Virus record (IMG/VR): IMGVR_UViG_3300009091_000050
Span: 1 to 27,670 of that record
Strand: one strand, 5' to 3'
DNA from: a virus
Length of the DNA stretch: 27,670 bases
Shown here in pieces: positions 664 through 26,391 of this stretch. How positions within the stretch are numbered: position 1 is the first letter of the stretch; every line of letters begins with the position of its first letter. The position numbers and the translations under genes were made by a program. The notes beneath the pieces were generated by a model. The model had not been told where the DNA came from, made no database searches, and worked only from the letters and a program-made list of their open reading frames with translations.

Positions 664-867
664 ATGAAAACAAGGTATGTAAAGAGGAAGCTGAAGAGAT
701 GTGATATTGTTCAACGTGTAGGCAATCTGATAGGATTAAGATCACCAAAACTGAAAACGGGTTATCTTACACGTAAAGACCTTATGGAAATTTTAACAAA
801 ACTTGAAACTATGATTGATGCAACTAGAGGTATAGAACATGCAGAAACAAGAGATATTATTTCATAG
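664..867 (+). CDS. Hypothetical basic protein, 67 aa
   Basis: The ATG follows the previous stop with no gap and has an AGAGGTGA ribosome site just upstream. The N-terminal 35 residues are rich in Lys/Arg, which would suit nucleic-acid contact, and residues 38-55 look helical. The 3' end overlaps the primase-helicase gene by 29 bases in another frame. No motif or family is recognised, so its role is only suggested by its position immediately before a replication gene. Confidence 0.7.
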   Translation: MKTRYVKRKLKRCDIVQRVGNLIGLRSPKLKTGYLTRKDLMEILTKLETMIDATRGIEHAETRDIIS

Positions 868-2998
868 TAATTTAACAGCTTTCAAGCAGCATGGTTTTAT
901 TCCTTTAAGTATATCAGGAGAAAACCAAGCTGTCGGTAATTGCATATTTTGTAATGGTAAATCTAAAAATCATAAAGAAGGTTCTTTTTTTATTAATGTA
1001 GAAAATAAAATGTGGGATTGTAAACTTTGCGGAAAAGAGGGAGGATTTAAAACATTTATAAATGAAGTAATACGACAAGGAAAAGAAGATTTTAAAGATT
1101 TTAAGAGAATTAATGCTTTATGGTTGGCAAAGAATAGAGGACTGAAAATAAAAACATTAATTGATAATAATGTAGGTTATAATCCTCTAATGGATCATTA
1201 TATAGTTCCAGCATTTGATATCAACCGAAAAGAAATTTACAGTTTAAAAATTTTTTCATGGTCAAAAAATGGCACAAAGCATCGATCTATAACCGCTGGA
1301 ATGAATACCGCTTGTTTAGGTTGGTATAATTTATTGTATAAATTTAACGAATGCTACATTCTTGAAGGAGAGTGGGATTATTTTACATGGTATGAAATCA
1401 GTAAAACAATAGGAATAAGTTCGGATATTATTTTTATTAGTTTACCTATGGCAACTGGATTTAAAGACGATTATGTAAACTATTTCAAGAATAAAAATGT
1501 AAAGGTTTTATTGCACAATGATTATGATAGAATAGTAAATGGAAAAACTGTTTTTGGTGCTGGTGTTCAAGGGATGATTAAGATATATAATAAACTTTCT
1601 CAAGTAGCAAGTCATTTAGATTTCATTCATTGGCCGGAAGATAAAAAAGATGGTTATGATGTTCGGGATTTATATAATGATTTTAATAATAATGCAATGA
1701 AAACATTTACTTTTATTGAAAAAAATCTTCAAAAATATCCTCCTAAAATTAAATTATATTCTTTAGATAATCAAAAGAATATTAATAAAGAATTACCACA
1801 AATTTCTCAAATACCATTAAATCAGCGATACACTGGAAACGGAATTGATCGTACCGATGTTTACAACATATACGAAAAATGGTTGTTGCTTCCTTCAACT
1901 GATTTAATTGATGTGTCTATTGGTTGTGTAATTGGTAATAGACTTCCCGGTGATCCTATATGGTTACAACTTGTAGGGCCTTCCGGTTGTGCAAAGTCTG
2001 TAATATGCATGGCACTTGATTGCCATTTCGATATAGAGGCAATTGATACATTGACACCAGCAACTCTAATCAGTGGAAGTACTACTGCTGGTGGTGGAGA
2101 TCCGTCTTTACTCCCAAAATTGCATGGAAGGATTCTTGATATTAAAGATTTGACAACTATTTATGAAATGAATTCTGTTGCAAGAAATGAAATATTCGGT
2201 ATTTTTCGATCTGCTTTCGATGGTCATTACTCAAAACCATTCGGTAACGGTATGATGACACGTTCAGGAAACAGCAAATTCGGTTTCATTGCAGGTGTTA
2301 CACATGCAATCGAGCAATATACTGAAGGAGATACTGCACTAGGTACAAGATTTCTTTTATATAAAATTCAGTATGGTAATGTTCATAATATTCTAAAGCA
2401 GATTGATAAAAACCTTGATGAAGAATTTCTTAATAATAAAAGTATGAAAGCAGAACTTAAAGATGCTTTCAAAAGAGCAATTGATTTCAACTATAATATT
2501 CAAAGTATAGAACTTGATGATAAAATACTTGAACAATTGCGATACTTAAGCATTATTATCGAAATGACAAGGGGAACAGTATTGCAGGATCATTTTACGA
2601 AAGAAATTACTTATAGTCCGATGACTGCATTACCAACCAGAAGCTATGTTCAATTAAGAAAAGAATTGACAGGTATAATGCTATTCAGGAAAGTGAATAT
2701 ACCCGATAAAGAAAGTATGAAAATAATTTGTGATATAGCATCGGGGACCATTCCTCTTTCCAGAGAAAAGATATTATCAATTTTATGGAAAGCAAAATTG
2801 AAAGGTGAGGAAAAAATAGAGTTAGGAGTGTTAAGTAAAATATTGAAGCTTCCAACTATAACTTGTCAACGACAAATTGACAAGTTGGTTGCACTTGGAA
2901 CAGTTGAAAAGATTAATTTGTCATCAATAAAAACTGCTTATAAACTGACGGAACAAATTATTGAAGCAATTGAAAAAGGAGGAATGTATTCAAAATGA
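839..2998 (+). CDS. DNA primase-helicase fusion (zinc finger, Toprim, P-loop helicase)
   Basis: This 719-residue protein probably makes primers and unwinds DNA at the phage fork. A CHC2-like zinc finger is visible at C35/C38/C61/C64. A Toprim-like region follows, with the glutamate in LEGEWD (E176) and the DxD pair D228/D230. The C-terminal half is a P-loop ATPase with Walker A GPSGCAKS (380-387), Walker B ILDIKD (D434) and a GTRF arginine (R504) suited to an arginine finger. Residues about 640-715 resemble a winged helix, which could bind origin DNA. The helicase half resembles ATPases fused to primases in many phages and is not obviously DnaB-like. The ATG at 839 has an AGAGG site and overlaps the previous gene by 29 bases. 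The stop forms ATGA with a short downstream gene. Confidence 0.88.
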   Translation: MQKQEILFHSNLTAFKQHGFIPLSISGENQAVGNCIFCNGKSKNHKEGSFFINVENKMWDCKLCGKEGGFKTFINEVIRQGKEDFKDFKRINALWLAKNRGLKIKTLIDNNVGYNPLMDHYIVPAFDINRKEIYSLKIFSWSKNGTKHRSITAGMNTACLGWYNLLYKFNECYILEGEWDYFTWYEISKTIGISSDIIFISLPMATGFKDDYVNYFKNKNVKVLLHNDYDRIVNGKTVFGAGVQGMIKIYNKLSQVASHLDFIHWPEDKKDGYDVRDLYNDFNNNAMKTFTFIEKNLQKYPPKIKLYSLDNQKNINKELPQISQIPLNQRYTGNGIDRTDVYNIYEKWLLLPSTDLIDVSIGCVIGNRLPGDPIWLQLVGPSGCAKSVICMALDCHFDIEAIDTLTPATLISGSTTAGGGDPSLLPKLHGRILDIKDLTTIYEMNSVARNEIFGIFRSAFDGHYSKPFGNGMMTRSGNSKFGFIAGVTHAIEQYTEGDTALGTRFLLYKIQYGNVHNILKQIDKNLDEEFLNNKSMKAELKDAFKRAIDFNYNIQSIELDDKILEQLRYLSIIIEMTRGTVLQDHFTKEITYSPMTALPTRSYVQLRKELTGIMLFRKVNIPDKESMKIICDIASGTIPLSREKILSILWKAKLKGEEKIELGVLSKILKLPTITCQRQIDKLVALGTVEKINLSSIKTAYKLTEQIIEAIEKGGMYSK

Positions 2999-3174
2999 AT
3001 AACTTATATAAATGTATTTGTATAAATGGATTAATTTTTAATATGTTTATTCAAGTTTTAAAGATAAGAATAAAACATAGAAAAAATAAAATTTTAATGA
3101 CTATACTTATTAGTCAAATTGTTGCTATGACAAGAGCACATATACAAGTAATAATGCAAGTGATGATGAAATGA
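2995..3174 (+). CDS. Small hydrophobic/basic protein, 59 aa
   Basis: This frame fills the apparent 172-base gap between the primase-helicase and methyltransferase genes exactly. Its ATG overlaps the primase stop (ATGA, 2995-2998), an AAAGGAGG ribosome site lies at 2975-2982, and its TGA overlaps the methyltransferase ATG (ATGA, 3171-3174). Such double coupling is hard to explain by chance. The product is rich in Ile, Met and Val with a basic middle (KIRIKHRKNK). It could be a membrane-associated peptide, or mainly a translational bridge that delivers ribosomes to the methyltransferase start, which lacks its own strong ribosome site. Function unknown. Confidence 0.6.
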   Translation: MNNLYKCICINGLIFNMFIQVLKIRIKHRKNKILMTILISQIVAMTRAHIQVIMQVMMK

Positions 3175-4007
3175 TTACTCTTAACACCATATATAATGAA
3201 AACTGCATTATTACTCTTTCCAGAATGCCGGATAAATTCATTGATATGACATTGACTTCTCCTCCTTATGATGGAAGGCGCACTTATGAAGGTGAGCATA
3301 AATTTGATTTTGAAGAATTTAAAGTGATTGCAAAGGAACTTTATCGAGTGACAAAAGAAGGTGGTATTGTTGTATGGGTAGTTGCCGATGAAACAAGAAA
3401 TTATTGTGAATCACTTACATCATTCAAGCAGGCAATTTATTTTGTTGAAGAGTGCAAATTTAATCTTTTAGATACTATGATTTATTACAAATGTCCATCC
3501 TGCTTTAGAGGAATGCCAAAAGTAATGTGTGATCGAAAATATACAAATAGTTATGAATATATGTTTGTTTTCAGCAAAGGTATACCGAAAACTTTTAATC
3601 CTATTTTGATAAAAACAATGCCAGTAATTAAAACTGAAAGATCAACTTCACTAAGGAAAGAATCAGGTATTTTAAGACCAATAAAATATGAACATAAAGA
3701 ATTTAAATCATTAGATAATATATGGAAAATACTTCCCAATGATAATACAGATAATAAAGAAAACGAATCAATTCATCCGGCGGTATTTCCGAAACAGTTG
3801 GTAATTGATCATATAAAATCATGGTCAAATGAAGGAGATATTATTTATGATCCTTTCAGCGGATCAGGAACGGTTGCTAAATGCTGCAAATTAATGAATC
3901 GAAAATATATAGGTTCTGAAATTGTAAGAAAATACTGGTTAATGGGAAATATAACTCTTAAACGTACAGATGATAGAAAGAAGGGAAGTGCTTTATGGAA
4001 AATTTAG
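3171..4007 (+). CDS. Orphan DNA methyltransferase, beta class (m4C/m6A)
   Basis: The protein (278 aa) transfers a methyl group from S-adenosylmethionine to an exocyclic amino group in DNA. Catalytic motif IV is TSPPY at residues 29-33, near the N-terminus, and the AdoMet-binding motif I, DPFSGSGT, is at 227-234 near the C-terminus. The order IV then I defines the beta class. A serine before PPY is commonest in N4-cytosine enzymes, whereas adenine enzymes usually have DPPY, so m4C is favoured but not proven. HPAVFPKQL (202-210) is the conserved segment ahead of motif I. No restriction endonuclease lies beside it, so self-protection against host restriction, or regulation, is likelier than a complete restriction-modification system. 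The start is coupled to the upstream gene by ATGA. Confidence 0.9.
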   Translation: MITLNTIYNENCIITLSRMPDKFIDMTLTSPPYDGRRTYEGEHKFDFEEFKVIAKELYRVTKEGGIVVWVVADETRNYCESLTSFKQAIYFVEECKFNLLDTMIYYKCPSCFRGMPKVMCDRKYTNSYEYMFVFSKGIPKTFNPILIKTMPVIKTERSTSLRKESGILRPIKYEHKEFKSLDNIWKILPNDNTDNKENESIHPAVFPKQLVIDHIKSWSNEGDIIYDPFSGSGTVAKCCKLMNRKYIGSEIVRKYWLMGNITLKRTDDRKKGSALWKI

Positions 4008-4891: not shown

Positions 4892-5095
4892 ATGACGTTT
4901 GAAAAAGACCTTTTTAATTTATGTCAACTAAATCAAATGAGTGATAAATTAGAAGAAGAGGGAAGTATATTACCGAAAAAGGAAGTTAATGATTTTAAAA
5001 AATCAATTGATTGGAAAATGAGACATTTACACACAAAGATATTAGATAATATAAATATAAATAAATCTGAAGAGGAGCTTTCCAATGGCAACTAA
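4892..5095 (+). CDS. Hypothetical acidic/helical protein, 67 aa
   Basis: A GGGGAATT ribosome site precedes the ATG at 4892. The product is highly charged and probably all helical. Its last codons overlap the ParB-like gene by 11 bases, so the two are translated from one message. No motif or family is recognised. Confidence 0.7.
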   Translation: MTFEKDLFNLCQLNQMSDKLEEEGSILPKKEVNDFKKSIDWKMRHLHTKILDNININKSEEELSNGN

Positions 5096-5702
5096 AATGA
5101 TGATAAAACAACATGCAATTCCTTCTGAAGATATGAAGGAAAATCTCGAACTAGTTTCAATTGATAGCATTAAGTTGTGGGAAGGTAATACAAAAAAACA
5201 CACCGATTCCAGTGTAAAAAGAATTGCAAAATTGATTGAGACTTATGGTCAACAATCTCCTGTTGTTGTATGGAAAAAGGATAGACAAATAAGAAAAGGC
5301 AATGGAACGTATCTTGCAATCACAAAAATATTAAATCGAAAAACCATTTATGTGAAATGGGCCGATTTTTCAAACAAAGCAGAAGCTGACTTGTATGCAG
5401 TATCTGATAATAAAAGTACTGAATGGTCCGAAAATGATGATGATGCATTACGTGAATTGTTTACCAGAGAAGATATTATAGAGTTCACTGGGAAAAACAA
5501 GCAGCGTTTAAAAGAGTTTTCAGGATTTACAGAAGAAGATTTGAAAGAGTTATTTATTGAAAAGGATTTAAAGAAAATTAATGACGAAAACGGTATGTGT
5601 ACCGTAAAGATTGAATGCAGAAAAGATGAATCGGAAGAGATAAAATCCGTTCTTTCCCAGTGGGCTATAAATTCAGGATTTGAAGGACTAATTATTCATT
5701 AA
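5085..5702 (+). CDS. ParB/sulfiredoxin-fold nuclease-like protein
   Basis: Residues 23-95 match the ParB N-terminal domain: an entry strand VSIDSIKLWEGN, a helix SSVKRIAKLIETYGQQSPVVV, then the nucleotide-binding turn IRKGNGTYLAI (69-79), which corresponds to the usual GHGRLLAA box. A conserved-looking YAVSDNKSTE (104-113) follows. The domain binds CTP in chromosomal ParB and occurs in phage proteins as a putative nuclease or DNA-modification partner, often beside methyltransferases as here. The turn lacks the usual arginine after the second glycine (T75 instead), so activity may differ. The C-terminal third has no recognised fold. No ParA partner is nearby, which argues against a partition role. 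Confidence 0.8.
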   Translation: MATKMMIKQHAIPSEDMKENLELVSIDSIKLWEGNTKKHTDSSVKRIAKLIETYGQQSPVVVWKKDRQIRKGNGTYLAITKILNRKTIYVKWADFSNKAEADLYAVSDNKSTEWSENDDDALRELFTREDIIEFTGKNKQRLKEFSGFTEEDLKELFIEKDLKKINDENGMCTVKIECRKDESEEIKSVLSQWAINSGFEGLIIH

Positions 5703-5720
5703 AAATATAAGGGATATTAA

Positions 5721-5924
5721 ATGAAAAGACCAATGTTAAAAGTACAAATTAGAAGAATAATGATGTTTAAGAGCAGAAAGCCTGTATTCATTCTTTACAG
5801 AAGCAATTTCAATTCAGAAATGGTATTTGAAAATTTTATGGATTTATTAAAATGCATGAAGGAGAGTTGTTTATTCAACTCTTATGCATTTTCAAGAGGA
5901 ATTAAAGTAGGAAGGTTATTATGA
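5721..5924 (+). CDS. Hypothetical basic protein, 67 aa
   Basis: An AAGGGAT ribosome site precedes the ATG, and the stop overlaps the macro-domain start by ATGA (5921-5924). The N-terminal 28 residues are markedly basic, and residues 31-48 form a mixed hydrophobic segment. I recognise no family. Its strict coupling to the macro-domain gene suggests the two are made in equal amounts. Confidence 0.7.
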   Translation: MKRPMLKVQIRRIMMFKSRKPVFILYRSNFNSEMVFENFMDLLKCMKESCLFNSYAFSRGIKVGRLL

Positions 5925-6352
5925 TTGAACAAGTTTGCGATATTTTCTCTAATAAATGCTTTTGTATTACTACAAACGGAACTGTTAAAAGGAATGATGA
6001 ACTTGTAATGGGTGCAGGAATTGCTTTAAAAGCAAAGATTTTGTATCCAATGTTACCTATTTTATTTGGTAAGCATGTAAGAAGTAATGGTAATATACCT
6101 TGTTTATTGAAATATAAAGATAAGATTATTATATCATTTCCTACAAAAGATCATTATTCTTTTAAATCTGATATTTCAATTATTATTAATTCATCTATTA
6201 AATTAGTTAATATTGCTGATGAATTAAAGCTATCGGAAATATATTTGCCCCGTCCCGGTTGTTCCAATGGTAAGTTAAATTGGTATTTTGTAAAGAAAAA
6301 CATATGCAATATTTTAGATAATAGATTCATTGTGTGTACATATGAAAAGTAA
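5921..6352 (+). CDS. Macro-domain protein (ADP-ribose binding/hydrolysis)
   Basis: The whole 143-residue protein is one macro domain. The ADP-ribose-binding features are visible: ITTNG (residues 16-20) with the asparagine that contacts the distal ribose, the glycine-rich loop VMGAGIALKAK (29-39), and the second loop LPRPGCSNGKLNW (109-121) that surrounds the phosphate and terminal ribose. This arrangement matches phage and bacterial proteins annotated as ADP-ribose-1''-phosphate phosphatase or ADP-ribosyl hydrolase. In a phage such a protein could recycle ADP-ribose phosphate from tRNA repair, remove ADP-ribose from DNA or protein, or bind an NAD-derived defence signal. It is the last gene before a long non-coding region. 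Confidence 0.85.
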   Translation: MIEQVCDIFSNKCFCITTNGTVKRNDELVMGAGIALKAKILYPMLPILFGKHVRSNGNIPCLLKYKDKIIISFPTKDHYSFKSDISIIINSSIKLVNIADELKLSEIYLPRPGCSNGKLNWYFVKKNICNILDNRFIVCTYEK

Positions 6353-6598
6353 ATTATTTTTATTAATTTTGTCAATATTTTCAGTATATTTCAACTATAT
6401 TTTTATACAATTTGAATGATTCGAAGGGTGATTTATGAATAAAAGTGCGATTTTTTAGAAAATTATTATCATGATTGTAAAAAGAAAAATTTTAACAGTA
6501 TGTAAGATTTATGATGAAAATATATATTGTTTATAAGAATGGTAAACATTTGTTTTTGTTCTTTAAGTTATTGAATTTATTATTAAAACTATATGTAT

Positions 6599-6619
6599 GT
6601 TACATAAAAAGTTACATAC
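6599..6619 (+). repeat. Left arm of perfect 21-bp inverted repeat (GTTACATA half sites)
   Basis: The 21 bases read GTTACATA, four A, GTTACATA, C: two direct copies of an octamer 12 bp apart. The extended sequence from 6595 also gives GTATGT facing ACATAC (6614-6619). The reverse complement recurs exactly at 6774-6794. Such repeated half sites are typical of repressor operators or initiator-protein binding sites. Confidence 0.8.
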
Positions 6620-6773
6620 GTAATTATAGGAAAGTGTATATATTATATATTATAAATATTTACAATTAATAATATAAATATAATAATATTAATAAGTTAT
6701 AAATTGAATTGTTGAAAATGAAGAAATTAAGGCATTTTTATAAATATATTTTATATCCCTAACCTACTGTTAT

Positions 6774-6794
6774 GTATGTAACTTTTTATGTAAC
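6774..6794 (-). repeat. Right arm of perfect 21-bp inverted repeat
   Basis: This copy is the exact reverse complement of 6599-6619, with 154 bases between the arms. It lies 9 bases upstream of the AGGAG ribosome site (6804-6808) for the gene at 6818, where a bound repressor would block a promoter or transcript start. A stem formed by pairing the two arms in RNA is also possible. Confidence 0.8.
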
Positions 6795-6817
6795 GTTTAA
6801 GAAAGGAGTACGATTTT

Positions 6818-7108
6818 ATGAATGATTTTATTGAAAGAGTTACTAAATCAAAAAATAAAGATGAACTATTAAAAAATATGAAAATTATGTTTGAAGTAAG
6901 TTGTATAACATTCGATACTGGTTTTAAAATATATTCTCTTATAAATAAAGGTCATGTTTATAAATGCAAAATGCATGTATTACATGAAATAATGAGAGAT
7001 ATGCTCAATAGTGAAAATCCTGATTTTAATCTTATTGATTACCTTTTAAAATTAATGGATATAGAAACAGAAGAAAACAGAAAGAAAGGAGCAAAAGGTA
7101 ATGACTGA
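6818..7108 (+). CDS. Hypothetical protein, 96 aa, first gene of second operon
   Basis: The start is well supported by AAAGGAG ten bases upstream. The protein is helical and charged, with a few cysteines (29, 50) but no recognisable motif. As the first gene behind the inverted-repeat control region, it is a candidate for the regulator that binds those repeats, although I see no clear helix-turn-helix. The stop overlaps the next start by eight bases. Confidence 0.75.
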   Translation: MNDFIERVTKSKNKDELLKNMKIMFEVSCITFDTGFKIYSLINKGHVYKCKMHVLHEIMRDMLNSENPDFNLIDYLLKLMDIETEENRKKGAKGND

Positions 7109-7391
7109 AAAGTATTTCCTTATTGGTGACACCGAAACGATAGGCATTTACTTTCAAGATGAAAAGGATAAATTAACAATAGGTGGTAATGCAAGATTTT
7201 CCCATATAATACAAGTTATAGTCGAAGAATATTTTAATTTCAGTAGTTATAAAATTACTATGACGGCAAAAAATAAAGTAAAATATGTTGCTGTTTGTAG
7301 AAGAACACAATTTGATATTGGTCTTAACAAAATAAAAAATGATGGGATGGTTATCAATCAAACAAAAAATTTTAATAGAATATGGTGGTAA
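7101..7391 (+). CDS. Hypothetical protein, 96 aa
   Basis: The ATG overlaps the previous gene and is preceded by AAAGGAGC. The product looks like a mixed alpha/beta fold; residues 7-14 read LIGDTETI, which superficially recalls the exonuclease DTETTG box, but no other exonuclease motif follows and the protein is too short for that fold. No family is assigned. Confidence 0.7.
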   Translation: MTEKYFLIGDTETIGIYFQDEKDKLTIGGNARFSHIIQVIVEEYFNFSSYKITMTAKNKVKYVAVCRRTQFDIGLNKIKNDGMVINQTKNFNRIWW

Positions 7392-7393
7392 TA

Positions 7394-7474
7394 ATGAATA
7401 ACATTGATATTTATACAGCAGCTTTCTTTATCGGATCATTATTTTTTCTTTTTGTGATTGGAGTATTATGCTGA
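7394..7474 (+). CDS. Single-span membrane peptide, 26 aa
   Basis: This short frame fills the gap between two genes: it starts three bases after the previous stop and ends with a seven-base overlap of the next start. After a polar eight-residue head, residues 9-26 are uninterruptedly hydrophobic (AAFFIGSLFFLFVIGVLC), consistent with one membrane span. The ribosome site is weak (GGTGGT). It could be a real micro-protein or simply a translated leader. Confidence 0.4.
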   Translation: MNNIDIYTAAFFIGSLFFLFVIGVLC

Positions 7475-7659
7475 TTAAATTTTTATTGTGGTATCTGTTA
7501 ATAAATTGTAAAACTGTTATATGGGTAATTAATAATTATAGATTTAAAAATAAATATAGTTATAAAAATAGATTTATATATAATGGATGTTTTTATTTAC
7601 GATCACAGTTAGAAAATATCATTCTATTTTTAGAAGATAGAAAGAAGTATAGTTTATGA
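7468..7659 (+). CDS. Hypothetical basic, membrane-leaning protein, 63 aa
   Basis: A GGAG site (7460-7463) precedes the ATG. The first 20 residues are hydrophobic (LIKFLLWYLLI, then VIWVI) and are followed by a basic, tyrosine-rich middle, so membrane attachment through the N-terminus is plausible. The stop overlaps the next start in ATGA. No family recognised. Confidence 0.6.
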   Translation: MLIKFLLWYLLINCKTVIWVINNYRFKNKYSYKNRFIYNGCFYLRSQLENIILFLEDRKKYSL

Positions 7660-7847
7660 AAGAAAATTATAAAATAGATCCTTGTCCTTTCTGTGGAGGA
7701 GAAGCGGATATTATAAGAGGGAATATAGGAATATACTGCATTCGATCAAAATTTAAAATTTATTGTAAAGTATGTCAAGTTAGGCAAATTTTTCATAAAA
7801 CATTGAAAAGTGCTATTGCAGATTGGAATAGTAGAAAGAGGGCATAA
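7656..7847 (+). CDS. Lar-like restriction-alleviation family zinc ribbon
   Basis: The N-terminus reads DPCPFCGGEA (residues 8-17), the hallmark first knuckle of the Lar family. A second cysteine pair in YCKVCQ (37/40) completes a four-cysteine zinc ribbon, and the C-terminal AIADWNSRKR matches the family's usual WN-R ending. In the Rac prophage, Lar modulates type I restriction-modification; most phage members are untested. The gene is coupled by ATGA to the previous one and is followed directly by the next start. Assignment to the family is good, function in this phage is unproven. Confidence 0.75.
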   Translation: MKENYKIDPCPFCGGEADIIRGNIGIYCIRSKFKIYCKVCQVRQIFHKTLKSAIADWNSRKRA

Positions 7848-8789
7848 ATGATTATAAGTAAGCAGAATCTTCTTCCAGTTGCATTGACGAAACCGGATAA
7901 GAATATTCCGGTATTGGATTGTTTACGGATAGAAAGTGATGGCAGTAGTGCAGGAGGTAATGGAAAATCATTTATAGTTGTCTCGTCAGTACCCGAATCA
8001 ATTAAAAATAATGTAAGTAAAGTATATGGCAATGATAAATCCGAAGGTGTTACTATTACAAGTGAAACAGTAAAGGAGGTATTGAAAAATATTCCTTCAG
8101 ATAGTAAATACGGCGGATTGTTGGAACATACTGAAGTCGTAAGTGCAGACGGCAGTTCAGTTAATTTTGTTTTGTATGATGGAGCCAGAAAAAGAAATAT
8201 TTCCGGTAAGGTGAATCCGTCTTCATATCCACCATACAAGAAATTGTTTCAAAGAGCAATGAATAATAAGAAGTCGATTCAATTAGTTATTAACTCAAAA
8301 AGATTTCTTCCGTTAATTGATACATTGATTAAATGTTCCAATGATTCAGGTGATTTCTCGCCTATGTATATTGAATTTACACAAGAAAATGATATTATCA
8401 TGAGAATGATTAATCCAAAAACAGGACAAAGGTGTATTGGTATAATGTGGAGTAATAAAGGACAAGAAGCTAAATGGTTGGATGAATCTACTTTTGAGAA
8501 AGGATTGAAAGATGGAAATGTTGTGGATGTTAATAGGAGTAATATCAGTAATGATATTAATGATATGGATAATATTCAACATAGTTTACGTAATAAAAAT
8601 ATATCTTCAGGATTGGAAATTCATAAAGGAGGAAAAGTTTCCAAAGGAGCAAAGAGAACAGGAAATAGAAAGTTGTCTCGAATAATAGATAAAATGTGTC
8701 CGATGTGTGGAAAGTTTCATTTAGCAAGTGATGGTAAGTATGAATGGTGTAGTTGTATATCTGGATGCAATTATTTTAAGGAGGTTTAA
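7848..8789 (+). CDS. Possible DNA sliding-clamp-like protein with C-terminal zinc ribbon
   Basis: The middle of this 313-residue protein has a pattern reminiscent of DnaN-type clamps: a beta-rich run with SADGSSVNFVLYDG (99-112), GKVNPSSYPPY (120-130, compare GKFPDYERLIP) and a new domain-like start at INSKRFLPLIDTLIKC (148-163) followed by a strand pair. Residues 211-280 are low in hydrophobics and probably flexible. The tail carries CPMC (284/287) and CSCxxxC (301/303/307), a zinc-ribbon-like ending not found in ordinary clamps. Clamp assignment is tentative; the alternative is a phage-specific beta-rich protein. It starts immediately after the Lar-like gene. Confidence 0.6.
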   Translation: MIISKQNLLPVALTKPDKNIPVLDCLRIESDGSSAGGNGKSFIVVSSVPESIKNNVSKVYGNDKSEGVTITSETVKEVLKNIPSDSKYGGLLEHTEVVSADGSSVNFVLYDGARKRNISGKVNPSSYPPYKKLFQRAMNNKKSIQLVINSKRFLPLIDTLIKCSNDSGDFSPMYIEFTQENDIIMRMINPKTGQRCIGIMWSNKGQEAKWLDESTFEKGLKDGNVVDVNRSNISNDINDMDNIQHSLRNKNISSGLEIHKGGKVSKGAKRTGNRKLSRIIDKMCPMCGKFHLASDGKYEWCSCISGCNYFKEV

Positions 8790-9052: not shown

Positions 9053-9255
9053 AATACATTTTGTATACATTAATTTATTCACTATTTTGTATATTTATAA
9101 GTTTATTGATTAAGGAAATTGATATTTTAAAAATTAGATCTATTCCAAGTTGGATTATAAAAGTATGTAAATTTACTTATAATGTATCGGCCGTTTTATT
9201 TATTACTGGAATGACTATTATCTTAATTTCAATATTATTAGGGGTTAAAATATGA
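9049..9255 (+). CDS. Two-span membrane protein, 68 aa
   Basis: Residues 3-22 and 46-66 are hydrophobic enough to span the membrane, joined by a short basic loop (KEIDILKIRSIPSWIIKVCK). Both gene ends are ATGA overlaps with neighbours. A holin would have this size and topology, but there is no endolysin nearby, so I do not assign that role. Confidence 0.7.
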   Translation: MKYILYTLIYSLFCIFISLLIKEIDILKIRSIPSWIIKVCKFTYNVSAVLFITGMTIILISILLGVKI

Positions 9256-9635
9256 AAATAGTTACCGGAGTTGAAGTTATGGAATGTACACCTATGCATG
9301 GAGCAAATAATATTGTAAGAATTGCTCACAATGGGGTATTGGAAAATGAAGAAGTTGTCGGAAAAACATTTATTAATAGTAAAGGAGAAAAGATTATTAT
9401 TGGTATATCAAAAGTAGTTCAAGAAACTTTAGGATTGCCGATTCTTGAATTTGAGCGTATAGATAATGAAATGAAAAATTTAAGAAAAGCTTATTTTAAG
9501 GCAATAACGGATTTTATTGAAGCGAATAATAAAATACAAAAGTTAGAAGAAATAATTACAAAAGGTGCAAAAGCTGATTTCTTTCGACGATTTCAATATT
9601 TCATAACAGGTAAATTTAAATATTTAATTCATTGA
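9252..9635 (+). CDS. Hypothetical protein with coiled-coil segment, 127 aa
   Basis: The first 65 residues look beta-rich; residues 70-105 are a charged helix able to form a coiled coil. The tail (FFRRFQYFITGKFKYLI) is aromatic and basic, perhaps an amphipathic membrane-contacting helix. Start is fixed by an ATGA overlap with the two-span membrane protein, which may be its partner. No family recognised. Confidence 0.65.
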   Translation: MKIVTGVEVMECTPMHGANNIVRIAHNGVLENEEVVGKTFINSKGEKIIIGISKVVQETLGLPILEFERIDNEMKNLRKAYFKAITDFIEANNKIQKLEEIITKGAKADFFRRFQYFITGKFKYLIH

Positions 9636-16356: not shown

Positions 16357-17289
16357 ATGGATAAAGATTCAAAGATTTATATCGCCGGGCATAATGGTCT
16401 TGTCGGATCAGCATTATTAAAAAATTTATTGAATAATGGGTATACAAATATTGTTTGCAGATCACATAGCGAAATAGATCTAATGTGTAAGAATCAGGTC
16501 GATGATCTTTTTTCCAGTGAATACCCTGAATACGTTTTTCTTGCGGCTGCAAAAGTCGGGGGAATAAATGCTAATAATACGTTTCCCGCTGACTTTATTA
16601 ATAATAATTTACAAATTCAAATAAATATTATAAATGCCTGTTTAGTGCATAAAGTAAGAAAATTGTTGTTTCTTGGATCTTCTTGCATATATCCTAAATT
16701 TTCACCACAACCTATTAATGAAGATTGTTTGTTGTCAGGTCCATTGGAACAAACAAATATTGCATATGCAGTTGCCAAGATTGCAGGTATTATAATGTGT
16801 CAAAGTTATAATAAACAATACGGTACTGATTTTATTTCAGTAATGCCAACTAATCTTTATGGTCCAAATGATAATTATGATCCAATTAGTTCACATGTAT
16901 TACCTGCTTTAATTCATAGATTTCATTTTGCAAAGACATATAATGATTCTGAAGTAGTTATTTGGGGAACAGGTAATCCAAAAAGAGAATTTTTACATGT
17001 TGATGATCTTGCAGATGCATGTATTTATTTAATGAATAATTATTCTAATAGTAAAATTGTTAATATAGGATCTGGTATAGAGATTACAATAAAGAAACTT
17101 GCTTATATGATTAAAGATATTATTGGATTTAATGGTATTGTGCAGTTTGATCCAACTAAACCCGATGGTACACCTCGCAAGTTTCTTGATTGTAGTTTTA
17201 TCCATAGTTTAGGTTGGACACATAAAATTTCTTTAGAAAAAGGAATTGAAAGTACATATGAATCATTTTTAAAAGAGATATATAAATGA
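16357..17289 (+). CDS. fcl: GDP-L-fucose synthase (GDP-4-keto-6-deoxymannose epimerase/reductase)
   Basis: The 310-aa protein matches the short-chain dehydrogenase family member that converts GDP-4-keto-6-deoxy-D-mannose to GDP-L-fucose with NADPH. Visible features: Rossmann glycines GHNGLVG (11-17), the SSCIYP box with C110, catalytic YxxxK at Y137/K141, LYGPNDNY (168-174), H180 in SSHVLPALI, and [19 protein letters not shown] (203-221). C110 and H180 align with the epimerisation residues of the E. coli enzyme. Its substrate must come from GDP-mannose 4,6-dehydratase (gmd), which is not in this window. The start is one base after the previous stop; the stop overlaps the portal gene by ATGA. 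A sugar-nucleotide gene between packaging and portal genes is unusual. Confidence 0.93.
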
Positions 17290-19592: not shown

Positions 19593-20862
19593 AGAGAGAA
19601 TAAAGGAAAAGCAAATAAAATCTGTTAATGGATTAAAAGAAAATCCACGTATTGTTTCATTGACTGAAGATGAGTGTAGAAAGCTTTGTGATGATATTAA
19701 ATTGAAATTCATTCCCGGATATGAGAAAAGAGTTATTGAGAGAATTACTACAACCGAAAGTCCCGACAGGGATGGTGATATTGTTCGTGCAAAAGGTATT
19801 GACAATAAAAACTACCGTCTTAATCCTGTTGTTATGTTTGCACATAATAAAAGTGATTTTCCTGTTGGACAATCAGTCAAGGAATGGATTGATAAGAGTA
19901 TTATCGGATGGCGTTCATGGGACCTATATCTTGACAATACAGTAGATACCACTGGAAGAAGCGATCTTGTATTCAGGATGGTTGACTCTGGTGCTATGAT
20001 AGGTGGTTCGATTGGTTTTATTCCAAAATCAAACGGTGCAAAATATGATCATACAGATGAAGAAAGAAAAAATTTAGGACTTGGTAAATATGGAATTGAA
20101 TTTCTTTCCGTAGAAAAATTGGAACATAGTGTGTGTTCTATTCCAGCGAACGTGGAAGCTCTTGCTGCTGCTTTAAAATCTTGTAATTCAGAACAGATAA
20201 GAAAGCAGTTGGTAAAAGCTGATCTTGATATTATGGAAAAACAGAAAATGTTGGATAATAGTCTTATTGATGTTTTCTATTCAGTATTACAAATACCAAA
20301 AACTATCATTGAAATGCATTGTGATGATGATAATTGCGAAACATGTATGGAAAAAGCTGATATTGAATATGTACAGAAACCTTACCCGAATGAACATGCA
20401 TGTAGATTGAATGAACCTGGAAAGTATGATGAATTCAGAAGAGGTACAAGAAAACATAACGGAAAAACTTACTCTGTTATTTACGGTAAATTAAAAAATA
20501 AGGATTCATGGGAAGATCAGGCTTATCGTTATTCTAAAGATAAATGGACTGAATCGGAAGCACGTTCTCATTGTAAAGATCATAAGGGTATTCTTTTTGA
20601 ACCGGCAAGTGAAAAGGAAATCAAACAGGAGGAAGAAATGATAATCAACATCGATTTGAACAAAGCAATTGAAGGAATTGCAAATTTAACAAAACAAATG
20701 GAAATATTTAATGAGAACATGAAAAATATCGAAAAATCAATAACTGAAAAGTTTAAGTCTCTTATGGAGATAGCCGACAAATCTATCGCTTCCATCAAGC
20801 AGATTGATAACTCAAATTCAGTTTACGATAAAAAGAATATTGAAAACATTTTAAAAATTTAA
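19573..20862 (+). CDS. Prohead protease with C-terminal coiled coil
   Basis: Residues about 50-200 match HK97-type prohead proteases: TTESPDRDGDIV (60-71), YRLNPVVMFAHNKSDFPVG (81-99) with catalytic H91, GGSIGFIP (144-151) with nucleophile S146, and the SVCSIPANVEA (186-196) edge strand. They cleave scaffold and capsid N-termini during maturation. An extra domain at about 268-345 (PYPNEHACRL, EDQAYRY, KWTESEARSH) is a recurring phage head-protein module. Residues 356-410 are a coiled coil. A strong AGGAGG site (20627-20632) lies before an in-frame internal ATG at 20638. The ATG at 19573 follows AAGGAAGG. Confidence 0.92.
   Translation: MSSPKIEERIKEKQIKSVNGLKENPRIVSLTEDECRKLCDDIKLKFIPGYEKRVIERITTTESPDRDGDIVRAKGIDNKNYRLNPVVMFAHNKSDFPVGQSVKEWIDKSIIGWRSWDLYLDNTVDTTGRSDLVFRMVDSGAMIGGSIGFIPKSNGAKYDHTDEERKNLGLGKYGIEFLSVEKLEHSVCSIPANVEALAAALKSCNSEQIRKQLVKADLDIMEKQKMLDNSLIDVFYSVLQIPKTIIEMHCDDDNCETCMEKADIEYVQKPYPNEHACRLNEPGKYDEFRRGTRKHNGKTYSVIYGKLKNKDSWEDQAYRYSKDKWTESEARSHCKDHKGILFEPASEKEIKQEEEMIINIDLNKAIEGIANLTKQMEIFNENMKNIEKSITEKFKSLMEIADKSIASIKQIDNSNSVYDKKNIENILKI
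20638..20862 (+). CDS. Possible internally initiated scaffold protein (nested, in frame)
   Basis: Within the protease gene, AGGAGG ends five bases before an in-frame ATG at 20638. Initiation there would give a 74-aa coiled-coil protein equal to the protease C-terminus. Phage lambda makes its scaffold Nu3 by internal initiation within protease gene C, so the layout has precedent. However, the codons GAG GAG GAA here also simply encode glutamates, so the SD match may be incidental. Confidence 0.35.
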   Translation: MIINIDLNKAIEGIANLTKQMEIFNENMKNIEKSITEKFKSLMEIADKSIASIKQIDNSNSVYDKKNIENILKI

Positions 20863-20876
20863 TTAGGAGTATTTTT

Positions 20877-22214
20877 ATGCCTATTGAAAAATCAGAACTC
20901 GAAAGCTTGCTTACTACTTTTCGTGATGGAATTACGAAAGCAATAGAAGCAAAAGCAAAAGAACAAAGTGATGCTGCAAATAAAGAAATTGCAGAAATGA
21001 AGGTAAAACTTGAAGCAACAGAAAAAGCTCTTAATGATCTTAAAGAACAGGCAAAGAAGGGATTTGGATTGCCGGGACTTGATGGAAAAGATAAAAGTAG
21101 ATTCAGTTGGTCCAAATTTTTTGTTGGTCTTGCAAATGATTTTAAGGTAACAAAAGGCCATCTTGATGCAAGTGCAGCAAAAAACTTTTGGGATACAACT
21201 GCATCATTTGAACGCATTATTTGCAGTGAGTACGGAAAAATGATTGCAAAGGATTACAATGCAACGGATGGTTCTTCAGGTGGGTTTATTGTTCCTCCTC
21301 AAATCTATCAGGGTGATGTTATCGATGTTGTGTATGCAAATACGGCAATTCTTAAAATGCCTGTATTGAAATTTGAGAACCTTAAAGGAGACATGCCTAT
21401 TCCAGTGGACAACGGTCACTTGACTGCTTATTCATTGGGGGAAACTGAAGCACCTACTAAATCAGCAGCAACTTTTAAATTGGAATGGTTGAGACCAAAA
21501 AAGATCGGTACATATGTACGTGTGTCAAATCGATTGCTTGATCAAACTAATAATGCCATTGAAATGATAGTAAAAGGTAAAATGGCATTGGATACTTCAG
21601 TTGAGCTATCACGATGTCTTACTTGCGGAAAAGGTGCGGATAGTGAAGGAAAAGGTATTCTTGAATTTTATTCTCAAATGACAGGTACAAAAGCAATTTC
21701 AACGAATGGAAAACGTTTCAGTATTGATGATCTTGCAGCAATGAAACAAGCTCTTGCAGTTGCAAATGAGTTGAGAGATACGGCAACTTATGGAACTATT
21801 ATGCATCCGAGTGCATACTGGGGAATGTTGCGTGAGACTGCTGAAATGTATAGTAGTCAAACTAACGGCAAAGGAATGCCGAAACTTCCAAAGCTTTTAC
21901 TTGATGTTGCTGATATCCAGAATGCTTTAAAAGTAAAAATTGAATCAACTACTCAAATACCAATGACTCCGCTTGTTGGAAATTCATCAACATGCACAAA
22001 GGTTATTACAGGAGATTGGAGCAAGTTCGTATATGCTTCCTTCAGAGATCCTATTTTCAGGGTTTCCGATGTAGCAAGTGATTCAAGCGGTCGAAGTGCT
22101 CTTCTTAATGATGAATTGTTTATGGTTATGTTTCTCGAATATGACTGCAATTGCTTGCGTGCTGCAGCTTTTTGCGGTCGTGATGGTGCGGAAACAGCCG
22201 AGTCTTCATGGTAA
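20877..22214 (+). CDS. Major capsid protein, HK97 fold
   Basis: This 445-aa protein builds the head shell. Residues about 5-62 are a charged coiled coil typical of the scaffolding delta domain, removed by the prohead protease. The mature part begins after a linker, with GGFIVPPQIYQGDVIDVVYANTAILKMPV split around 135-163, and GTYVRVSNRLLDQ (211-223) entering the spine helix and P-domain. FRDPIFRV near residue 395 is the conserved A-domain strand, and MVMFLEYDC leads to the C-terminus. An AGGAG site precedes the ATG. It follows the protease with 14 bases between, the standard HK97 order. Confidence 0.93.
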   Translation: MPIEKSELESLLTTFRDGITKAIEAKAKEQSDAANKEIAEMKVKLEATEKALNDLKEQAKKGFGLPGLDGKDKSRFSWSKFFVGLANDFKVTKGHLDASAAKNFWDTTASFERIICSEYGKMIAKDYNATDGSSGGFIVPPQIYQGDVIDVVYANTAILKMPVLKFENLKGDMPIPVDNGHLTAYSLGETEAPTKSAATFKLEWLRPKKIGTYVRVSNRLLDQTNNAIEMIVKGKMALDTSVELSRCLTCGKGADSEGKGILEFYSQMTGTKAISTNGKRFSIDDLAAMKQALAVANELRDTATYGTIMHPSAYWGMLRETAEMYSSQTNGKGMPKLPKLLLDVADIQNALKVKIESTTQIPMTPLVGNSSTCTKVITGDWSKFVYASFRDPIFRVSDVASDSSGRSALLNDELFMVMFLEYDCNCLRAAAFCGRDGAETAESSW

Positions 22215-23638: not shown

Positions 23639-24282
23639 TTGTTGATTTTAAAAATAACTTTCAGGAAATTGCTGAAAAATGGAAAAAGTTTCCAAAGCAA
23701 TTTGAAGATGCTTTAAATATAGGATTTAAGGAAGGTTTAAAAAGGTATTCAGGTTATCTTGATAAAGAGCAATTAAGTGGTAGGAAATCGGAAAATTATG
23801 GACTTAATAGACAAAGTGGAACTGCTGCAATGTCTCTTGATGTAAAAACTTTTATAGATAGTCAAGATTTAGTTGGAACAATTACGGTTGCAAAAAATGC
23901 ATGGTATTTAAAATTGCATCAACACTTCGAATTTAACGGATATGCAACTGCGAAAGGTGGAACGTGTTTCTCTATTCCAGTGCATCCGGATGCAAAAGGA
24001 AGAAGACCTTCAGATTTTAATTTAAACTTTATAAAAATTCCTGGTAGAAATCCAATACTTATAAGAAGAATGTTTAAAGGCGGAAATAAAAGAGGTGGTG
24101 CTTCTGTAGCTGGACAACAATTAAAACGTGAAGATATCATGTTTGTACTGACTAAAAAAATATATATTCCGAAACGTCTTTACTTCTATGAAGAGTTTAA
24201 AACAGAAGGTAATAATATGATCATTGAACAATTAAATAATAGATTTAATGAACTTATGCAGAAATTAGGAGTTGCTTCATGA
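23635..24282 (+). CDS. Neck or tail-completion protein (gp10/virion-morphogenesis-like)
   Basis: Follows the connector by ATGA. The order of elements (an N-terminal helix, LSGRKSENYGLNRQSGTAAMSL at about 46-67 in pieces, then VAKNAWYLKLHQHFEFNG at about 84-101) fits phage proteins that complete the head-tail joint: a helix followed by a LxRQTGxLxxS strand and an A-YAxxHExG strand. The C-terminal part contains KRLYFYEEF and a helix. The assignment is from motif order and gene position, not from strong sequence identity. Confidence 0.6.
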   Translation: MIVDFKNNFQEIAEKWKKFPKQFEDALNIGFKEGLKRYSGYLDKEQLSGRKSENYGLNRQSGTAAMSLDVKTFIDSQDLVGTITVAKNAWYLKLHQHFEFNGYATAKGGTCFSIPVHPDAKGRRPSDFNLNFIKIPGRNPILIRRMFKGGNKRGGASVAGQQLKREDIMFVLTKKIYIPKRLYFYEEFKTEGNNMIIEQLNNRFNELMQKLGVAS

Positions 24283-24932
24283 AGAGAATAATTTCTTTTT
24301 CACTTTGGGGAAACAATTCACTTTACTGTGATGGTGCTGTATGGAATGCAGTTGAAAGAGAAAAATTTTATCCTGATTGGAATTGCAGATTTTACTATGA
24401 TGATTCTGTATCATTGGAAATAGTTGACAAGATTGCATCAACAAAATCGGAACTTATTCATATGAACAGAACAACCGATATGTTGGGAATGTTTTGGAGA
24501 TTTCATCCAATGTTTGATGATTCTGATATTGAAAGATTTATAGTCAGGGATACTGATTCCAAATTTACTAAACGTGAATCAATTTTAGTAAATGAATGGA
24601 TTGAAAGTAATAAACCATTTCATATTATAAGAGATCATCACTCTCATGGATCTTCTATTCTTGGTGGCACATGGGGAGCTATTCCTGGTTGTATACCAAA
24701 TTTTGAGAGAAGAATTGGAATTTTTTTCAGTAATTTATATCCCGACAAAAATAATCCGAGAGGTGTATTTCATGGATGCGATCAAACCTTTTTAAATGCT
24801 CATGTATGGCCATTCGTTAAAAATAATCATATAGCTCATATAAGGAAAAACAATCCTGGGCTGCGTTATACAGGAAACGAAATTGAAATTGATGATCCTA
24901 TTGATGGTCATTATGTAGGAATGGTTGCATAA
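24279..24932 (+). CDS. DTD-motif glycosyltransferase-like protein
   Basis: The 217-aa protein begins RIISFSLWG, a first Rossmann-type strand, and carries IVRDTDS (88-94), the acidic metal/nucleotide-sugar site of GT-A enzymes. GGTWGAIPGC (129-138) and HGCDQTFL follow. The set resembles bacterial proteins with RDTDSRxxxRE and ILGGMWG boxes found in polysaccharide and phage glycosylation loci, though the precise GT family is not certain. It overlaps the neck gene by ATGA. The next gene begins with a homologous domain, including long identical DNA stretches, so this is one half of a tandem duplication. Confidence 0.7.
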   Translation: MKRIISFSLWGNNSLYCDGAVWNAVEREKFYPDWNCRFYYDDSVSLEIVDKIASTKSELIHMNRTTDMLGMFWRFHPMFDDSDIERFIVRDTDSKFTKRESILVNEWIESNKPFHIIRDHHSHGSSILGGTWGAIPGCIPNFERRIGIFFSNLYPDKNNPRGVFHGCDQTFLNAHVWPFVKNNHIAHIRKNNPGLRYTGNEIEIDDPIDGHYVGMVA

Positions 24933-24933
24933 T

Positions 24934-26391
24934 ATGAAAAAAGTTATATCATTTTCACTTTGGGGAAATGAATCACTATATATAAATGGTGCAATAAGCA
25001 ATATAATTAATAGTAAGAAGTTTTATCCTGATTGGGTATGTAGATTTTATATTGATGATTCGATTAATAAAGAACTTCAAGATAAAATATTATCTCTTGG
25101 GAATACTGAAATAAAATTAATGCCAAAAGCAACCGATGTACTCGGTATGTTTTGGCGTTTTGCTCCTATGTGGGATGATTCTGATATTGAAAGATTTATA
25201 GTCAGGGATACTGATTGTCAACCTACAGAAAGAGAGGTTACTGCTGTTAATGATTGGATAAAATCAAATAAACCGTTTCATATTATAAGAGATAATCATT
25301 ATCACAATGTTCCTATTCTTGGTGGCACATGGGGAGCTATTCCTGGTTGTATTCCTAATATGCAAAGAGATATAAATAGTTTTCTATTAAATGTTAAGGA
25401 AACCGAATCACAACACAAAAATAGAAGATTTCATGGATGCGATCAAATTTTTCTTTACAATTTTGTATGGCCGATAATTAAAGATAATCATATTGCGCAC
25501 GTTCGTGACAATGAATCTAATCTTTTAATAACAGGTAAAGAAATAATTCTTCCTCCACTGGAAGAAAGCGGGCATTTTATAGGGATGCCTTGTACTGATA
25601 TTAATGGAAAATTTACCAGAGTTGAAAGTCACCTATTGAAGAGTAATTCATGGAAGTATAAAAAAATTTGTTTAATGCTTCCAACTTATAAACGAATTGA
25701 TAGGTTAAGCAGTTTTATTTATAGTGTATATGGTACTGTAAGTGATATTAATAATGTATGTTTTTCTTTTTGTGTAAATATTAATGATAAGGAAACAAGG
25801 AATTTTCTTAATAGTTATAATTGGCATGATAAGAATTGTTTCGAAATAATTGATGAAGATACTATTCAACCTAATTTATCTCTTTATTTCAATAAAATGT
25901 ATAAAGAAACAAAATTTAAAGATGCAATTGTAAGCATGTTAGGCGATGATATGCTTTTTAAAACTAAAGAATGGGAATTTAGAATACTTGATATAGTAAA
26001 TAAATATGATGGAAAGGCAATTGTTTATTGTGATGATAACTTTACAGCTCATGAATCATGTGCAGTTAATTTATTTACTACAAGAGAAATGATTGAATTG
26101 ACTAATAAACCTTTCATGTGTGAATATTTTCATGCCGATATGATAGATGCAATATGGACAATGGTGGGAATGATGACAGGGACAATACATTATTTACCTG
26201 ATGTCATTATTCAACATAACCATTCATCTGCACAACCAAAAGAACTTTGGGATGAAACTTATCAACGATTGAATCCTATTCAGAAAGTATGCAGCACAAA
26301 AGAAAATATGAAATTAGCAACTACTTATGCAACATTATGTGCAAAAAATCTTATTGAGAATGGAGTAGGACAGTGGAACATTCTTCAATAA
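24934..26391 (+). CDS. Two-domain glycosyltransferase (DTD domain fused to second GT-A-like domain)
   Basis: Residues 1-225 duplicate the preceding protein: ISFSLWG, RDTD (91-94), GGTWGAIPGC (130-139), FHGCDQ (166-171). Residues about 243-450 form a second GT-A-like domain starting ICLMLPTYKRIDRLSSFI (245-262), with LGDDMLF (336-342) as its acidic site and HNHSSAQ (428-434) near the C-terminal metal-ligand position. The protein could thus transfer two sugars in succession. I chose the ATG at 24934, right after the upstream stop (TAATATG), with TAGGAATGG upstream; an in-frame TTG at 24925 is a weaker start. The end overlaps the next gene by 19 bases. Confidence 0.8.
   Translation: MKKVISFSLWGNESLYINGAISNIINSKKFYPDWVCRFYIDDSINKELQDKILSLGNTEIKLMPKATDVLGMFWRFAPMWDDSDIERFIVRDTDCQPTEREVTAVNDWIKSNKPFHIIRDNHYHNVPILGGTWGAIPGCIPNMQRDINSFLLNVKETESQHKNRRFHGCDQIFLYNFVWPIIKDNHIAHVRDNESNLLITGKEIILPPLEESGHFIGMPCTDINGKFTRVESHLLKSNSWKYKKICLMLPTYKRIDRLSSFIYSVYGTVSDINNVCFSFCVNINDKETRNFLNSYNWHDKNCFEIIDEDTIQPNLSLYFNKMYKETKFKDAIVSMLGDDMLFKTKEWEFRILDIVNKYDGKAIVYCDDNFTAHESCAVNLFTTREMIELTNKPFMCEYFHADMIDAIWTMVGMMTGTIHYLPDVIIQHNHSSAQPKELWDETYQRLNPIQKVCSTKENMKLATTYATLCAKNLIENGVGQWNILQ

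Follow-up and report, generated by a model that had tools for sequence, protein, structure and literature searches.

The largest intergenic spacer of an uncultivated tailed-phage fragment carries an inverted repeat of paired boxes around an A+T-rich core, and this element is best explained, in our judgement probably correctly, as a phage replication origin. The window, i.e. the whole stretch of DNA analysed, is the complete IMG/VR virus record IMGVR_UViG_3300009091_000050 (27,670 bases); it was compared with two relatives, L123 and L139, which are also IMG/VR records, so that the comparison comprises three records, all partial and from uncultivated phages. The original prediction had offered a looping operator pair and an origin as readings that both fitted; the looping operator was weakened, and the origin gained because position and architecture are kept in both relatives, the core motif is invariant, duplex stability reaches its minimum at the element and the second copy in L139 carries iterons. 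For most uncultivated phages the origin is unknown, and GC skew fails where all genes are co-directional; a dyad conserved around an unchanging core motif offers a candidate origin open to testing, in a phage lineage for which the reference collections searched contained no close relative.

Arms, boxes and core in the window

Every recognisable gene of the window lies on one strand, and the spacer at 6353–6817 (465 bp) exceeds every other intergenic gap, the runner-up measuring 159 bp. The element is surrounded by replication genes (PolA, Sak4, SSB-like, primase-helicase and clamp-like); its earlier placement at the junction of a replication and an accessory operon was only partly right, since the sliding-clamp-like gene sits downstream. 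Features are listed in Table 1.

Table 1. Positions of the element and of associated genes in the window (strand given where assigned)
Feature	Position	Strand	Remarks
Primase-helicase, proposed initiator	839–2998	+	CHC2-like zinc finger, TOPRIM, P-loop
Codons of the predicted C-terminal winged helix (residues 659–703), proposed box-binding domain	2813–2947	+	Modest-confidence model
ParB-like (ParB-N) protein	5085–5702	+	Member of the conserved gene order; methyltransferase fusion in L139
Extra upstream box CTTACATA	6499–6506	-	
Left arm GTTACATAAAAAGTTACATAC	6599–6619	+	Two direct boxes (6599–6606, 6611–6618), 12 bp apart
A+T-rich core, proposed DNA unwinding element	6620–6773		154 bp, 14.3% G+C
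Core motif TTTACAATTAATAATATA	6659–6676	+	17/18 columns identical in three phages
Right arm, exact inverse of left arm	6774–6794	-	Boxes 6775–6782 and 6787–6794
Small ORF just past right arm	6818–7108	+	Missing from this place in L123 and L139
Small-protein family gene	7101–7391	+	Next after the element in all three phages
Sliding-clamp-like protein	7848–8789	+	Weak PHROG match (E 3.5e-4); conserved downstream

The predicted 21-bp perfect inverted repeat was confirmed, and the core, put at about 15% G+C, was measured at nearly that value (Table 1). Within 400 bp, the longest perfect inverted repeat of the actual sequence is 21; first-order Markov controls of the window (n = 150) peaked at 18 (once) and mostly gave 12–14, and 5000 controls built from the A+T-rich spacer itself went no higher than 19. 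The extended arms comprise 32 nt and are 88% complementary. The half sites proposed at the outset stood as boxes, with the correction that each arm holds two of them as direct repeats. The predicted extent of 6595–6796 starts about 100 bp too late, given the extra box upstream, and the right arm, said to abut a ribosome site, stops 8 bp ahead of AAGGAG. Exact GTTACATA occurs four times in 27.7 kb, all within the arms (1.24 expected), and 5/5 copies of [GC]TTACATA lie inside the spacer, so that boxes are confined to the element and none is scattered through the window; as the boxes were defined on the window arms, this clustering is not an independent test.

Some neighbouring sequences were recorded in passing. 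At 6340–6420 (plus strand) the window keeps a short vestige of a membrane ORF found whole in L123 (17217–17630), with 60 bp at 87% DNA identity followed by a stop; the gene preceding it in the window (5921–6352, phosphatase/macro-like PHROG) is a different one. A conserved membrane-type mini-ORF of 26 amino acids, MNNIDIYTAAFFIGSLFFLFVIGVLC, lies under the usual ORF size cut-off at 7394–7474 (plus strand; L123 18878–18958), where the DNA is ~87% identical and the surroundings differ. The 63-aa protein encoded at 7656–7847 (plus strand) matched the Pfam Lar restriction alleviation family (E 7e-10), and a DNA methyltransferase is encoded at 3171–4007; a counter-restriction role of the two is possible. 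Further off, 24279–24932 and 24925–26391 (plus strand) are tandem paralogues (DNA 73–78% identical over several blocks) that are also found in a relative; more glycosyltransferase-like ORFs follow them, and a nucleotide-sugar-epimerase-like ORF (16357–17289) lies upstream among structural genes.

Conservation in two relatives

L123 derives from a viral contig of 54.2 kb; its primase shares 91% identity with that of the window, and the element lies at the equivalent junction, upstream of the ORF 7101 homologue. GTTACATA is absent from L123; its arms are CTTACATAATAAGTTATATAC facing CTTACATAATCTCTTATATAC, with 148 bp between them. Both arms have undergone matching changes at three positions relative to the window; set against each other, the L123 arms disagree at no more than three adjacent positions, in the linker and at the edge of the second box. 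All four copies of [GC]TTACATA in the 54 kb fall within the equivalent spacer, as do 4 of the 14 copies of plain TTACATA, the 7-mer common to the boxes (0.13 expected, P ~1e-5). Two boxes like CTTACATA (record positions 22015 and 22036, 21 bp apart) lie ahead of the left arm, in the same orientation as the upstream box of the window. The remaining spacer aligns poorly between window and L123, and the element therefore looks like the footprint of a constraint. Coding across the left arm is unlikely, because the short ORFs of window and L123 use different frames.

L139 is a 22.8-kb contig encoding a clamp-like protein and a primase that are 40% and 36% identical, respectively, to those of the window; it shares the window's gene order, namely Sak4-like, SSB-like, PolA, primase-helicase, ParB-methyltransferase, spacer, 7101-family gene and clamp-like. 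Its spacer holds a perfect inverted repeat of 29 bp (9064–9092 and 9257–9285, 164 bp apart), the sequence of which is unlike that of the window. A second motif copy is found in this contig 16 kb off, on the opposite strand and in opposite orientation, between tail and early genes. This locus 2 consists of inverted arms, with three tandem 11-bp iterons starting AACGCA and a facing AACGCAA, and has ~36 bp of core in common with locus 1. The element is single-copy in the window and in L123, records that both end short of the late–early junction, so that lack of a second copy in them is uninformative. Box spacing is about one helical turn (12 bp in the arms of window and L123, 11 bp in the three iterons of L139 locus 2), and in all three records an A+T-rich region of unwinding type lies beside the boxes, as in iteron-type origins.

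Wider searches were made for the element. An exact search of viral contigs with a 20-mer of the arm gave no match, and a pattern search spanning the dyad recovered L123 only; the looser box-4-box pattern was present in at least 119 stretches, with one match each among those listed, and these are mostly chance. The core and its neighbouring genes gave no usable match to INPHARED phages.

Within the core, TTTACAAWTAATAATATA is common to all three phages on the same strand, 31–51 bp inside the left arm. Controls for the longer core motif (n = 40) reached at most 14 identical columns against 17/18 in the real alignment, a strong indication at sequence level that conservation exceeds the controls, which are few and thus give no exact probability. 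The motif occurs twice without mismatch in the L139 contig. A reading of the conserved TTTACA as a sigma-70 -35 box was rejected, because the three cores have no consistent -10 box at suitable spacing. The L139 phage also has an incomplete third occurrence of the core motif, TTTACAAATAATAATTTT (L146, 10133–10150, minus strand), directly upstream of the ribosome site of a late gene; it may be chance or a relic.

Duplex stability was calculated by the nearest-neighbour method in windows of 100 bp. A+T-rich spacers are generally weak in this respect; here each of the three records has its overall minimum within the element, in the window starting at 6604, in L123 at 22200–22206 and in the L139 contig at 19753, where the second copy ranks third lowest. 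A stability minimum at this place is what an origin core should show. The GC-skew minimum considered in the original prediction did not appear, since skew remains above zero across the window and across the 54-kb L123, with no change of sign; because all genes run one way, this result is uninformative on an origin in either direction. A skew change at an origin is frequent, not defining.

Proposed initiation and alternative explanations

The analysis shows the architecture, its conservation, the clustering of boxes and the stability minimum; how an initiator would bind, melt the core and start replication, and which protein it would be, is inferred as follows. Initiator copies would occupy the two boxes of both arms and, from either side, build an assembly that grows toward the A+T-rich core. 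That core, the least stable DNA of the record, would open, with TTTACAAWTAATAATATA as a conserved melting or loading motif, and helicase and primase would then begin DNA synthesis. The L139 phage would have two such loci, 16 kb apart. The most likely initiator would be the phage's own CHC2/TOPRIM primase-helicase, acting through a C-terminal winged helix as in P4 alpha. This protein (719 aa) has CHC2-like cysteines and a TOPRIM region, followed by a P-loop, GPSGCAKS, identified by eye; its families were recognised through the L139 homologue, which matches Toprim_2 and DNA primase families. Modelled from three sequences, the last 132 residues gave the order strand-helix-helix-strand-strand, as in a winged helix, with a mean pLDDT of 57 and ~70 over the winged-helix part (36 for the C-terminus modelled from a single sequence). 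The best Foldseek matches of this model were MarR and ArsR winged-helix proteins, at a weak E of ~0.02. The boxes are probably bound by this predicted domain. Between window and L139 the C-terminal part shows 30% identity, a level compatible with co-divergence of binding domain and boxes, and the three-phage series suits the question of how initiator domain and boxes co-change while the unwinding motif stays fixed. A primase fragment and the terminase were searched against genome contigs and gave no relatives, so that no host was assignable.

The main rival is a regulatory operator pair, in which a phage regulator on the boxes would govern the downstream operon's promoter, whether or not the DNA loops; we hold this to be unlikely. 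Its appeal lies in position, the right arm finishing 24 bp before the start codon at 6818 and both L139 loci lying upstream of gene starts, and A+T-rich spacers are the usual home of promoters. Promoter-like matches were nevertheless at chance level (22 vs 21.3, 18 vs 16.4, 4 vs 3.3 and 2 vs 1.8), at the second L139 locus the conserved core motif is directed away from the genes downstream, and no repressor family was found among the scanned proteins, which include many small ORFs without assignment. Looping in particular is disfavoured because the distance between arm centres, 175 bp in the window, is 169 bp in L123, a difference of about half a turn of the helix, so that phase is not kept. 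It is improbable that the arms act by folding, i.e. by pairing as RNA (a processing site) or as a DNA cruciform with the pairing itself under selection. The RNA does fold far better than shuffles (z -5.5, -3.9 and -9.2), and the arms stay complementary as their sequence changes (29/29 in L139, and the three parallel changes between window and L123); pRN1-like origins act as stem-loops, and to that extent folding overlaps with an origin. Against it, the three adjacent positions in L123 are unpaired, direct repetition of boxes, unpaired upstream boxes and tandem iterons require no pairing, the loop is the most conserved part, and a search of Rfam gave no match. The extra unpaired boxes, the tandem iterons and the invariant loop motif indicate a role at the DNA level. 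An intrinsic terminator was also considered and is disfavoured, no short G+C-rich hairpin with a T run being reported at the element in the window.

We give still less credence to a site at which a phage protein would act in partition, fork arrest or packaging. Iteron centromeres have a layout resembling boxes around an A+T-rich region, which the box spacing of 11–12 bp here recalls, and a ParB-like protein is encoded nearby; this protein is, however, of the methyltransferase-associated kind, as the L139 fusion shows, and no partition ATPase was found among the scanned proteins. For a packaging site, two copies per genome would be unusual. Fork arrest by one of the copies would have a parallel in a proposal for SPP1 oriR (PMC6316719). 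An invertible promoter switch, or a mobile element flanked by inverted repeats, is the most improbable of the explanations weighed. Perfect arms of 21 and 29 bp around ~150–165 bp, with a downstream gene adjoining, do resemble invertible promoters, but the core aligns forward between window and L123 (global score 88 vs 53 +/- 12 in shuffles; 56 vs 48 +/- 12 with the window core reversed), the strand of the motif at the junction is constant in the three phages, and the proteins examined included no recognisable site-specific recombinase. A mobile element is further opposed by the lack of duplicated flanks, by the single copy in window and L123 and by the same place in three phages.

Comparison with known origins

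Read as an origin, the element can be set beside four known systems. SPP1 oriL and oriR are two loci ~13 kb apart, each built of repeats and an A+T-rich unwinding element; one of the two lies in a long stretch between genes (PMC6316719); the L139 phage likewise has two loci of repeats with an A+T-rich unwinding element. SPP1 differs in having direct repeats and a separate initiator, loader and DnaB-type helicase, whereas in the present phage the arms face each other and primase and helicase are one protein; a separate DnaB-type helicase, a loader or a gp38 initiator was not recognised among the scanned proteins of the partial records. The origin of the crenarchaeal plasmid pRN1 is a large stem-loop, conserved in structure and not in sequence, that adjoins a primase-helicase with a C-terminal winged helix, and the origin of phage BIP-1 is proposed to be similar (PMC4234260). 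The likeness lies in arms conserved in structure rather than sequence and in a primase-helicase with a predicted C-terminal winged helix. In contrast, the pRN1 primase is of archaeo-eukaryotic type and its origin lacks iterons, while the present element has a TOPRIM primase, repeated boxes, an invariant core motif and a distance of ~4 kb from the primase gene. Membership of the pRN1 type (archaeo-eukaryotic primase with SF3 helicase) fails on the TOPRIM primase, and the resemblance is one of layout only.

P4 alpha, as cited in PMC4234260, unites a TOPRIM primase, a helicase and, at its C-terminus, a winged helix that binds the repeats of the origin. In the present phage one protein may likewise combine a TOPRIM primase, a P-loop (by eye) and a winged helix (by model), but family search detects no sequence relation, and box sequence and layout differ. 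In herpes simplex virus oriS, inverted initiator boxes lie on both sides of an A+T-rich spacer, and a third box is placed beyond them (PMC12543377); this is an analogy of layout only, virus and initiator being unrelated and the oriS spacer much shorter. The element is not filed as a member of the SPP1, pRN1, P4 or herpes oriS types. Tentatively, and at somewhat less than even chances, it may represent an undescribed type of phage origin, characterized by mirror-image paired boxes round an invariant TTTACAAWTAATAATATA, by co-evolution of boxes and winged helix and, in some phages, by two opposed copies flanking the replication genes.
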